Source: Elusimicrobiota bacterium
Lineage (GTDB): Bacteria; Elusimicrobiota; Elusimicrobia; UBA1565; UBA9628
Direction of reading: 5' to 3'
Length of the DNA: 54,446 bases
Assembly: GCA_003151975.1 (NCBI GenBank)
Contig: PLZD01000046.1
Coordinates: forward strand, 1 to 54,446
Both the position numbers and the translations under genes were made by a program. Each line of letters opens with the position of its first letter. Position 1 is the first letter of the stretch. Positions 35,802 to 50,180 of the stretch are shown here, piece after piece. The notes below the pieces were generated by a model. That model was not told the origin of the DNA, did not search any database, and saw only the letters and a list, made by a program, of their open reading frames with translations.

Positions 35802-36602
35802 TCATCGCAGAGCATCCTTAAGTTTAAAGGTCCAGGCCGGGACGCCGCATCCTTGCTTAATAAGCCTTCGACGCAAAGCGTCTGAGTCGAGAGCTTTTGC
35901 AAGCTTGGCGTCATCCGTCAAAAACGCGCCGCGGACCCGGCCGTCCTTATCGAACGCATCGAGAGGGATCATCTTGAGAGGGTCGCGTTCGTCTCCCGCG
36001 AACGCAAGAACGCGCTCACGCAGCAGCACCGCGTTCGACCATCGCACCCAATAGGCCGGCGTGTCGTCGTCCCCGCTATGCGTTTGGATCTCGGCGCAGG
36101 TCCAAGCCGATTCCTGGCTCGCACGCAACGCCGCCTGACCGACTCCATCCCTCTCGAGAAGGATCAAGGCGAGCGCGTCCGCGTGCACCTCCATCTGCTT
36201 CCAGTTCGCGTCCTTGAGAAAGTTAGAGCGCTTGTGCGCATCCCATTGAAGAACGTGGCTGATTTCGTGCGCAAGAATGCCGCTCAGCGCGTCGGGTTCG
36301 CGAGGTTGGCGCAAGGCACCGAGGGTCACGGCAAGTCGCCGATCCTCCCCGTTGTATGTGGCACTGACCCGCTCCTTCATCTTGAGCGCCATCGGATTAA
36401 GCGTCACGCCCGCCTTTGCCTCTAAGCGGGCGGCCATGCCCTCGACTTCATGAAAGTGATCGCAATCCTGGCTGGAGAGCGTCGAGTCCGCTATTGTCCG
36501 CCCCTGATCCTTGGGATCGACAAATACGGGAGGAGAACAAGCATCGGCTGCGATGCTCGGAGAGGCGAACGAGGTCAAAACTGCCAAGTATATGACAATC
36601 AT
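35802..36602 (-). CDS. Exported M48-like zinc metallopeptidase
   Basis: 266 residues from the ATG at 36602 (MIVIYLAVLTSFASPSIAAD, a signal peptide); an in-frame ATG lies eight codons upstream. ILAHEISHVLQWDAHK supplies HExxH near residue 111, and MEVHADALAL about 27 residues later supplies the third ligand glutamate with the AD pair typical of M48-like gluzincins. Six cysteines (including DAC, QDCDH, TCAEI, QGC) may form disulphides. It converges with the small beta-rich gene with a 32-base gap. Substrate unknown. Confidence 0.82.
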   Translation of the reverse strand: MIVIYLAVLTSFASPSIAADACSPPVFVDPKDQGRTIADSTLSSQDCDHFHEVEGMAARLEAKAGVTLNPMALKMKERVSATYNGEDRRLAVTLGALRQPREPDALSGILAHEISHVLQWDAHKRSNFLKDANWKQMEVHADALALILLERDGVGQAALRASQESAWTCAEIQTHSGDDDTPAYWVRWSNAVLLRERVLAFAGDERDPLKMIPLDAFDKDGRVRGAFLTDDAKLAKALDSDALRRRLIKQGCGVPAWTFKLKDALR

Positions 36603-36648
36603 TCGAAGGTCAGTTTCTCCTGTCATTCATTCGGTCGGCCTATCACAT

Positions 36649-48248: not shown

Positions 48249-48332
48249 AAAATTCGTAACCGGTTACGAATTTTGGGAAACCGGTTTCCCATTTTAGCGG
48301 GGGGTGAAAAATTGAAAACCGGTTCTCAATTT
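48249..48332. repeat. Three palindromes centred on ACCGGT
   Basis: Site 1 at 48249-48274 is a perfect 26-bp palindrome with core CGTAACCGGTTACG. Site 2 at 48274-48291 is a perfect 18-bp palindrome with core GGGAAACCGGTTTCCC. Site 3 at 48309-48332 is 24 bp with one mismatched pair (core GAAAACCGGTTCTC). Centres are 21 and 38 bases apart. Sites 1 and 3 also share the flank TGAAAAATT as direct repeats 59 bases apart. A central CG with this symmetry resembles LacI/GalR-family operators. They lie 70-150 bases upstream of the shc -35 box. The remainder of 48189-48358 is AT-rich and shows no gene. Confidence 0.8.
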
Positions 48333-48358
48333 CTTGGGCCAGCAATCGCCTGGATTCT

Positions 48359-48435
48359 GAGCTAACGCCTGCGTCAGCGGCGCGCGCTAACGGCGATCCT
48401 CACTGGCGCGCGTCCGCTGAACGCGATGTTAGAGC
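48359..48435 (-). mobile_element. attC-like recombination site of an integron gene cassette
   Basis: In the gene direction (minus) the order is GCTCTAAC (48435-48428), an arm TCAGCGG-A-CGCGCG (48420-48407), an 18-base loop, the complementary arm CGCGCG-CCGCTGA (48386-48374), and GTTAG (48366-48362). The arms pair over 14 bp apart from an unpaired T at 48413 and an unpaired A at 48421 on the plus strand, eight bases apart like the extrahelical bases T12'' and G20'' of known attC sites. The outer CTAAC/GTTAG boxes pair too. The lipoprotein stop codon lies inside, as is usual for cassette genes. Confidence 0.65.
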
Positions 48436-48870
48436 GCGATCCTTCTTTTCTCCCGGGCATGAACCTTTAACTATGAACCTCGATACTGTGTCCTGTTTGG
48501 GATCCGTTAAGTCTGGTTGCGAACCGACCGTAATCATATCAGTGTGAAGTGAGATTGAAAATTCGCATGACGAGCCACAGGAAGGAAGACTGCGGTCAAC
48601 TGAATAGGCTACGGAAAACTTTTTTGACTCTCCCACGCCGATGTCTTGAGCTGTAGTCGAAGAGGCATGCACGAATGGTGCGAGCGATGGGGGTTGGACG
48701 GACGGCAAAAGCGTAACGCCCTCAAGCGCGCCATCCGACGGTGCTTTATTCTGGATCTCCATCTCAATTGTGCCTGAATCTCCAGGCGTTACGCAGGTCC
48801 GGCGCGGAGCGCAGGCGATGGACGAAGAGACTATTACAGCAAGAATAATTCCCTTAGCGCGCCTTTTCAT
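48400..48870 (-). CDS. Cassette lipoprotein B, unknown function
   Basis: 156 residues. MKRRAKGIILAVIVSSSIAC is a lipoprotein signal (cysteine 20). The mature part starts TCVTPGDSGTIEMEIQ and runs as a beta-rich, Ig-like domain (LLPSVQPPSLAPFVHASSTT, VGESKKFSVAYSVDRSLPSC). It is related to the upstream gene: both carry C-V-x-P-G-D-x-G-x-I after the signal, a VTL/VTV strand and a final RFVVK-like strand with a cysteine. The start overlaps the upstream gene by 17 bases. Codon use is less GC-biased than in the neighbours. Its last codons run into the attC-like site. Confidence 0.75.
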   Translation of the reverse strand: MKRRAKGIILAVIVSSSIACAPRRTCVTPGDSGTIEMEIQNKAPSDGALEGVTLLPSVQPPSLAPFVHASSTTAQDIGVGESKKFSVAYSVDRSLPSCGSSCEFSISLHTDMITVGSQPDLTDPKQDTVSRFIVKGSCPGEKKDRALTSRSADARQ

Positions 48871-49270
48871 TTGGGCAACGTTTTTTTACAACGAATCTTG
48901 CCAAGCCTGCGTCCTTTGGATTATCCGGATCGGAATAGGCATCCGGATTTGGGATTGACTCGCTGAGCTGCACGTTTCGCTTCCCTGCCTTTGCATTTGG
49001 GCCGATCTCGTAGTCGATCAGGAAGACTTTCGTCGTGCCGGAAGAAATATTTACTGGCCCGATTTGAGAACTCTGACGAACTTTGAAATCCAGGTTTGGG
49101 TCTGCTGAAATCTTAACAGTGACGCCTTCGAGAGGAAGGCCCATCTCACCTGCCCTGACCGGAAAGTCTATCGATCCAGTGTCGCCTGGACTCACGCATA
49201 ATCGCGATCCAGCGCAACCCGTTAATCCGAAAGCAAGAGCGGCGATCGATGGAATGCTTTTCTTTGACAT
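48854..49270 (-). CDS. Cassette lipoprotein A, unknown function
   Basis: 138 residues; AAGGAA lies four bases before the ATG. MSKKSIPSIAALAFGLTGC is a lipoprotein signal (cysteine 19). The mature domain (LCVSPGDTGSIDFPVRAGEM, TVKISADPNLDFKVRQSSQI, NISSGTTKVFLIDYEIGPNA) looks like a single beta-sandwich of the kind seen in CARDB/NEW3-type domains. It is a paralogue of the downstream lipoprotein. The ribosome site lies within the first bases after the cassette boundary at 49282-49291. Confidence 0.75.
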   Translation of the reverse strand: MSKKSIPSIAALAFGLTGCAGSRLCVSPGDTGSIDFPVRAGEMGLPLEGVTVKISADPNLDFKVRQSSQIGPVNISSGTTKVFLIDYEIGPNAKAGKRNVQLSESIPNPDAYSDPDNPKDAGLARFVVKKRCPNEKAR

Positions 49271-49281
49271 TGTTCCTTACG

Positions 49282-49291
49282 GCGCTCTAAC
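49282..49291 (-). mobile_element. 5' boundary of the gene cassette (inverted copy of the attC end)
   Basis: GCGCTCTAAC at 49282-49291 is the exact reverse complement of GTTAGAGCGC at 48428-48437. In a gene cassette the first bases (G|TTRRRY) match the outer box of its own attC in just this way, so the cassette would run from about 49290 to 48366 (about 925 bp). Confidence 0.6.
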
Positions 49292-49303
49292 GACAATTAG
49301 ACT

Positions 49304-49436
49304 GGTCGGCCTAATTCTAGCCGGTCGGCCATAACTAAAATTGACGAACTTCGATTAAAGTGTAGCCCCACAACGAGAAGTTAGCAAGTTGGATATGGGC
49401 GGCCCTAAATTTTATGGCCGCCCCGGCCGGTCGGCC
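49304..49436. repeat. Three GGTCGGCC repeats between brnA and lipoprotein A
   Basis: GGTCGGCC occurs at 49304-49311, 49323-49330 and 49429-49436. The last two extend to a 14-base identity CCGGTCGGCCATAA (49321-49334 and 49427-49440). The first two flank a minus-strand TAGAAT that could be the -10 box of the lipoprotein pair. Confidence 0.6.
49397..49423 (-). terminator. Hairpin downstream of brnA
   Basis: GGGCGGCC (49397-49404) and GGCCGCCC (49416-49423) form a perfect 8-bp stem with an 11-base AT-rich loop. It begins 23 bases after the brnA stop. There is no clear T run, so termination is only possible, not shown. Confidence 0.4.
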
Positions 49437-49445
49437 ATAATTCAT

Positions 49446-49793
49446 TCAGACTTGCCGCGCCCTTGCACGCATTCGTGGCTTCCATGCGACATGGCCAAGA
49501 AGTTCGCGAGCTTTCTGCTCTTTGACGCTTTTCGGCGCGTGATGGCCGTTGGGATGAAGCCTCTCGTTGATCCACATTTTAATGATCGCTTGGCGAGACA
49601 CGTTCAGCTTCAGGGCTTCGCGGTCGAGCAACTCGATCATCCAAGAGGGGAAATCGACGTTGACGCGCCGGACTACGATCATATTCTTGATATCCAAATA
49701 AGGAGTGATATCCTCGTAGTTGTCGAACATCCGATCAAATTCTTCAGCGGTGATCGGCTTCACCTTTTTTCCGCTCCTCAATTTCGCTTTCAT
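49446..49793 (-). CDS. brnA: BrnA-like antitoxin
   Basis: 115 residues; GGAGAGG lies six bases before the ATG. VKPITAEEFDRMFDNYEDIT and RRVNVDFPSWMIELLDREAL with LNVSRQAIIKMWINERL form the BrnA pattern: a short toxin-wrapping part followed by a ribbon-helix-helix-like DNA-binding domain. It neutralises BrnT and represses its own operon in characterised systems. The start overlaps the end of brnT by 50 bases, more than usual. The C-terminal tail (PRMRARARQV) is basic. Confidence 0.88.
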   Translation of the reverse strand: MKAKLRSGKKVKPITAEEFDRMFDNYEDITPYLDIKNMIVVRRVNVDFPSWMIELLDREALKLNVSRQAIIKMWINERLHPNGHHAPKSVKEQKARELLGHVAWKPRMRARARQV

Positions 49794-50052
49794 AAATCCT
49801 CTCCAGACGCCGGTCGGCTCGATGGCAACTGATCAATCGGACGACTTCGTCCCTCATCGTGAACACCGCGACGTAGCACTTGCTCTCGATCCTTGCGAGA
49901 ATCGAGAAGCGCGTCTCGTCCAATACCGGCCTGGCCTCCGTGATGACGAAGTCGCCATCCCAGAGGCGTTGAGCCCATTCGAGATCGACGCCGTGCCGCT
50001 CTAGGTTCCGGCGGTTCTTCTCCGGATCGAACTCGAATCGCGTCTCATTCAT
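49744..50052 (-). CDS. brnT: BrnT-like toxin (RelE-fold ribonuclease)
   Basis: 102 residues from MNETRFEFDPEKNRRNLERH. FEFDPEKNRRNLERHGVDLE near the N-terminus and VRLISCHRADRRLERIYE near the C-terminus match BrnT, a ribosome-independent mRNA-cutting toxin. The basic/aromatic residues used for cutting (R, R, D, K-rich tail) are present in outline. Unlike most toxin pairs the toxin gene comes first, as in brnTA. A longer frame to 50139 passes through the operator palindrome and is rejected. Confidence 0.88.
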   Translation of the reverse strand: MNETRFEFDPEKNRRNLERHGVDLEWAQRLWDGDFVITEARPVLDETRFSILARIESKCYVAVFTMRDEVVRLISCHRADRRLERIYESEIEERKKGEADHR

Positions 50053-50101: not shown

Positions 50102-50180
50102 TTAATATATATACGATTGACCCCCTCAAATTGTTCCACTCATAAATCCGTTGCGTGCTATCTTTTGCTGAAAATTTGGT

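Follow-up and report, generated by a model that had tools for sequence, protein, structure and literature searches.

In a standard integron only the cassettes near the single attI and Pc are well expressed, and the remainder form a mostly silent reserve. Cassettes that are bounded by attC and have no integrase gene (intI) nearby are described as CALINs or as single attC sites lacking an integrase (IntegronFinder 2.0, PMC9024848), and their proposed origins are loss of intI or off-target insertion (PMC8618304). In the Shewanella prophage M16-3 an intI-less array, classed as a CALIN, begins with a copy of the attI found in the complete integron of the same prophage (PMC9892861). Extra attI sequence outside its usual place is also known from the Delta-attI-type cassettes of class 1 and 2 integrons, where it was shown to recombine (PMC12901181). 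For Xanthomonas, the part of the report drawn on here (PMC12444791) describes intI at one locus and attC clusters (CALINs) at several other chromosomal loci, and mentions neither attI nor Pc at those loci.

The locus described here lies in a 54,446-nucleotide stretch of DNA from an Elusimicrobiota bacterium (hereafter the window; contig C12), whose draft genome comprises 4.64 Mb in 68 contigs and is 96% complete. The locus resembles CALINs and single attC sites in its attC-bounded cassette without a nearby intI, but it is equipped with an attI and a candidate Pc of its own, an arrangement that recurs at ten intI-less loci. With one attC it stays below the default of at least two attC used for CALINs in IntegronFinder 2. 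Since that program recognises attI only in class 1 (PMC9024848), loci of this kind would be classed as plain CALINs or, if they have one attC, go unreported by default. Whereas the Shewanella case concerns one extra copy in one prophage, about ten dispersed loci with several attI subtypes are seen here, and whereas Delta-attI-type sequences are for the most part short pieces of attI that take the place of attC within arrays, here whole attI/Pc modules begin separate loci. A literature search of open-licence papers returned no report of a genome that combines a single intI with about ten loci headed by attI/Pc. Cassettes, CALINs, attI fragments in arrays and one case of a prophage CALIN that carries an attI are already known; many attI-headed loci per genome would appear to be new.

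The attC site and the lipoprotein cassette

The imperfect palindrome, its boxes and the 10-base exact inverted copy (49282-49291) were all present where an earlier note, made from the sequence of the window, had placed them (Table 1). In cassette orientation (minus strand) the site reads CTCTAAC-ATC-GCGTTCAGCGGACGCGCGC...GCGCGCGCCGCTGACGC-AGGC-GTTAGCT. The earlier count of 14 paired bases was too low, since five pairs in the R boxes and 17 in the stem were found. The two unpaired bases on one strand were recovered on the L'' arm, at 48413 and, within an AA run, at 48420 or 48421, giving a spacing of 7 or 8 instead of exactly eight. Folding of the plus strand, as the earlier note had suggested, gave -26.5 kcal/mol (z -2.8; 2 of 200 shuffles equally good).

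Table 1. Features of the cassette locus in the window.
Feature	Position	Strand	Basis or remark
attC	48360-48434	minus	R2 53.7 bits, E 6.7e-9; R1 64.2 bits (window site among the seeds); fold
R' box GTTAGCT of attC	48360-48366	minus	crossover 48366|48365
Gene cassette, 925 bp	48366-49290	minus	from G|TT at 49291|49290 to G|TT at 48366|48365
Lipoprotein B, 156 aa	48400-48870	minus	paralogue of A; tail encoded within attC
R'' box GCGCTCTAAC of attC	48428-48437	minus	complementary to the cassette's first bases
Lipoprotein A, 138 aa	48854-49270	minus	first cassette gene
attI/cassette junction box GTTAGAGCGC	49282-49291	minus	crossover 49291|49290
attI/Pc module, ~150 bp	49291-49438	minus	abuts cassette
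GGCCGACC repeats in attI/Pc module	49304-49311, 49323-49330, 49429-49436	minus	
Candidate promoter Pc	49359-49387	minus	TTGCTA (49387-49382), 17 nt, TACACT (49364-49359)
Putative terminator-like hairpin GGCCGACCGGCCGGGGCGGCC upstream of Pc	49416-49436	minus	conserved in copies
BrnA-like CopG/RHH antitoxin	49446-49793	minus	weak Pfam matches under cut-off; homologues beside BrnT in relatives
BrnT-like ribonuclease toxin	49744-50052	minus	PF04365, E 6.1e-17

A strict search for outer pairing missed most attC sites because the spacer between the R and L boxes is unpaired, and covariance models were used instead. Six related sites (four in this genome and two in the integron of a relative) have the same form with compensatory changes; in their alignment 91% of the cells are paired, 10 pairs are changed on both sides, and the covariation score is 0.41 as against 0.12 for shuffled alignments. 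Model R1 was built from these six sites and the window attC, which is thus one of its own seeds. Model R2 was built from 75 attC of the integrons of other organisms and contains no sequence of this genome, the finding of its members having depended on R1. In the genome-wide scan with R2 the window attC was the top match, and 14 further sites scored below it, on contigs C2, C37, C3, C52, C53, C11, C41 and C60. An Rfam search of the whole window returned no match.

R'', L'', L' and R' boxes with extrahelical bases thus stand at the 3' end of the cassette, and its first bases are exactly complementary to its own R'' box (GTTAGAGCGC / GCGCTCTAAC). A third exact copy of the 10-mer is present in the window at 36222-36231, and the number of matches with at most one mismatch (6, against 4.55 expected) is unremarkable; the 10-mer alone is therefore weak, but it gains weight because it is located exactly at the attI/cassette junction. 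The palindrome is a canonical attC, as the earlier note had supposed, and the unit that it closes, carrying two related lipoprotein genes and of the length then estimated (about 925 bp), is a real integron gene cassette. Two pairs of loci with differing attI subtypes, the window with C2:166229 (95%) and C2:166822 with C3, have attC cores of 95-97% identity, which would be compatible with exchange between platforms.

Between the cyclase gene and the attC (48249-48335) lie three palindromes with the common core AACCGGTT, namely AAAATTCGTAACCGGTTACGAATTTT, TGGGAAACCGGTTTCCCA and the imperfect AATTGAAAACCGGTTCTCAATT. Long perfect palindromes of similar style occur near the cassette loci on C53 (CGCAACGAATCAAAACCGGTTTTGATTCGTTGCG) and C3 (GAATCAAAATCGATTTTGATTC).

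The genes of lipoproteins A and B overlap, and the relationship proposed earlier for their products was borne out (31% identity, E 8e-14). A third relative is the sole gene of the cassette at C57:101539, which begins with GTTAGAGCGC as the window cassette does, and in the relative G019 a complete integron (contig C117; intI-attI-lipoprotein homologue-attC) has a homologue of lipoprotein A in its first cassette. A Pfam search of lipoprotein A gave no match. Function assignment from predicted structure was set aside, the model confidence being 61.7 and the matches being generic beta-sandwiches with poor superposition; we would tentatively regard the lipoproteins as probably membrane-anchored beta-sandwich accessory proteins. 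Lipoprotein-related sequences also match inside open frames of more than 2000 codons in relatives (L236, L237, L241, L242), which suggests a surface-protein domain common to these frames and the window lipoproteins.

The attI/Pc module and the toxin-antitoxin genes

The cassette is headed by an attI. A BLAST search with the module found an 89% identical copy over about 150 bp at C2:195867-196016, with unrelated flanks, and diverged copies on C57, C11, C52, C40 and C43; the remaining matches were weak (14-21 bp). All substantial copies lie at cassette or intI loci (the C43 copy at a contig end), and their outer flanks are non-homologous. The earlier note had considered a solitary cassette at a secondary site, a view that we abandon, since directly before the cassette stands an attI-like element which matches the intI-linked attI of relatives and has its 89% copy at another cassette locus. 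The insertion site is accordingly not an attG, that is, a site that is neither attI nor attC. An attI heads the locus, but no intI adjoins attI and array as it would in a complete integron. A second attI-like spot at 36630 was rejected, having a single GGCCGACC motif and no attC that could be found.

In most attI copies of this genome a -35/-10-like pair about 17 nt apart points into the cassette. A GC-rich hairpin lies upstream of this pair, and on C40 it directly follows intI and leads into a T-rich stretch. A consensus scan of the window called neither the candidate Pc nor the terminator; both putative assignments rest on conservation among the copies.

In relatives the order is intI, a toxin-antitoxin (TA) operon (BrnTA or MazEF), Pc, attI and cassettes, and the window has the same order minus intI (BrnTA, hairpin, Pc, attI, cassette). 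A TA operon directly downstream of intI and ahead of attI was observed at L247 (G019:C40), L248 (G019:C54), L252 (G005:C12) and L255 (G003:C121), placed as if it tied the integrase to its docking site. Among the loci compared, the closest matches of the window BrnTA are copies near attC in relatives and not the intI-linked ones, so that descent by simple loss of intI is no more than a possibility. A repeat of the form GTGGAACTTTTT-ACCCCCTCAATCGTATTCTCTT occurs before TA genes, intI and other genes (window 50105-50140; L009 1330-1420 and 2620-2660; L027 near 7540; L025 near 4460).

The squalene-hopene cyclase gene next to the locus occurs in 40 of 42 family genomes. Upstream of it, the lipoproteins and BrnTA were found in none of the 20 relatives examined. 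Where APC permease and TauE genes are near the cyclase in relatives the gene strand differs, and with gene order and strand so changed a clean empty site is not readable, only the absence of the lipoproteins and BrnTA. The picture that the earlier note had set against its own proposal, namely no match to an attC model and the same genes with the same flanks in distant relatives, is thus contradicted by the attC matches and by the absence of the genes (0/20).

The integron integrase and the dispersed loci

No intI lies in the window, as noted earlier, but the genome does encode one. A single integron integrase exceeds the curated cut-off genome-wide (C40:185-1114, 425 bits, full-length). In comparison with VchIntIA (2a3v) its R, HxxR, H and Y residues, which we take to be the catalytic ones, are conserved, as is the integron-specific stretch ahead of the final domain. 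The protein is thus a full-length tyrosine recombinase in which the catalytic residues and the integron-specific region are both in place. Its nearest relatives are found in genomes of Elusimicrobia, with that of isolate nzgw215 closest (70%), so that the window very probably belongs to this phylum. The gene is located at the end of its contig, and an attI copy follows on the 3' side; this copy has three GGTCGGCC repeats, has diverged from the subtype found in the window (75% over 68 bp), and reads G|AA where G|TT is expected.

The C40 and C43 ends share an identical 25 bp (L009 1-25, C40; L027 7630-7654, C43), and the start of C37 (L146 1-20) is similar to this end sequence. At C40 and C43 the expected attI junction reads G|AACGAGCC, an attC-like end (GGCTCG|TT) reversed, perhaps an inverted first cassette.

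Ten cassette loci without intI lie inside contigs: the window locus, two on C2, one each on C57, C11, C52, C3 and C41, and two on C53. Those at C2:165k, C3, C53:280k, C53:45k and C41 were reached from the attC side; two or three attC each are present at C2:165k, C52, C3, C53:280k and C41. One attI subtype occurs at four loci with non-homologous flanks. By eye an attI-like head is present at all ten, seven of which are firmly supported by a profile. This profile covers 25 positions, was built from ten attI beside intI, all outside this genome, and was applied at each locus to the 1.5 kb preceding the first attC, with 400 control windows. In the window it picks 49291|49290 with a score of 15.9, the control maximum being 12.4. 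It places the junction correctly in nine of the ten loci, with scores at or over the control maximum at C12, both C2 loci, C57, C11, C3 and C53:280k; C52 (p 0.04) and C41 (p 0.09) are placed correctly but weakly, and C53:45k, with a junction of G|AT, fails. Two of three dispersed loci pass in G013, a relative assembled as a single contig that contributed its main attI to the training set. Most dispersed attC loci of the relatives G022, G002 and G039 are without an attI-like core in this test and therefore look like ordinary CALINs.

Direct repeats in the flanks, such as an insertion might leave, were seen only at C41 (31 bp) and weakly at C57 (15 bp), with none at the window, so that neither a common footprint nor a common mechanism of insertion emerged. 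At C41 (L149, about locus 5260 and 3320) the 31 bp that end a ferredoxin-like gene (GGCATGGGCGTGAAGTACAAGTACGGCTGAG) recur immediately past the last attC, resembling flanks from tyrosine-recombinase integration.

Origin and possible use of the intI-less platforms

The attC, the attI and their exact junction can be read directly in the DNA. The explanation we prefer, and hold to be fairly probable, is that the window carries an integrase-less platform with a cassette inserted at its attI, transcribed from Pc and acted on by IntI in trans, with loss of intI, duplication of attI/Pc, or both, as its probable history. The platform would comprise the BrnTA operon, the terminator-like hairpin, the candidate Pc and attI, where the 925-bp cassette would have been inserted by standard attC x attI recombination at G|TT. 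Transcription from Pc would drive the lipoproteins, and capture and excision would be performed in trans by an IntI encoded elsewhere, the C40 IntI being the only candidate found. The ten intI-less loci probably stem from loss of intI off ancestral intI-TA-attI platforms, from attI/Pc duplication, or from both; the four attI copies of the same subtype in different neighbourhoods favour some duplication. Several points speak against this explanation: the C40 intI is at a contig end, its attI has diverged from the window subtype and reads G|AA, the consensus scan calls neither promoter nor terminator, the profile is weak at C52 and C41 and fails at C53:45k, and the window BrnTA is closest to copies near attC. 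The C40 IntI may be regarded as a candidate user of the window attI and not more.

The window locus could instead be the dead remnant of an integron that has lost intI, its attI and attC no longer in use. Loss of intI is a proposed route to CALINs (PMC8618304), BrnTA sits where relatives have a TA operon after intI, and some loci are degraded (the G|AT junction at C53:45k; a C57 R'' box reading CTATC). In the window, however, the attI junction, attC boxes, extrahelical bases and Pc position are intact, the single attI subtype at four loci suggests spread and not four separate losses, and attC cores are nearly identical between platforms; we consider a dead remnant unlikely.

Insertion by IntI at an attG-like site, leaving an ordinary single attC without integrase, is likewise a proposed CALIN origin (PMC8618304) and may suit the loci of G022, G002 and G039 that are without an attI-like core. 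Such an insertion would leave no common upstream sequence, whereas the element before the window cassette recurs at other cassette loci and is recognised by the profile from intI-linked attI, so that this origin is very improbable here. Loss of an adjacent intI by misassembly is conceivable in a draft of 68 contigs with intI and several cassette loci at contig ends, but the window locus is internal to a 54-kb contig and has ordinary genes to either side, and the same arrangement recurs at ten within-contig loci and at two of the single-contig G013; we give such an artefact slightly less credence still. A reading of the palindrome as some ordinary repeat or terminator resembling attC could be argued from its folding z-score, which by itself is modest, but a site that is the top R2 match of the genome, in the right place and orientation, closing a cassette that begins with bases matching the site's R'' box and adjoins an attI, makes a chance resemblance hardly credible.

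A wider reading of the integrase-less platforms, which we regard as possible but somewhat doubtful, is a distributed integron in which one IntI would serve about a dozen attI/Pc platforms around the chromosome, each with one to three cassettes behind a promoter and many expressed at once. If true, many docking sites with one integrase would escape the head-of-array limit on expression, and attI would be shown able to spread away from intI. Loci classed elsewhere as degraded CALINs may include working platforms, hidden because standard software omits the attI search outside class 1, and an intI-TA-attI platform minus its intI would be a candidate route to CALINs.

In G013 the integrase gene (G013:C1:2960333-2961256; L121, L180) has an in-frame TAG, yet about 30 attC lie alongside it.
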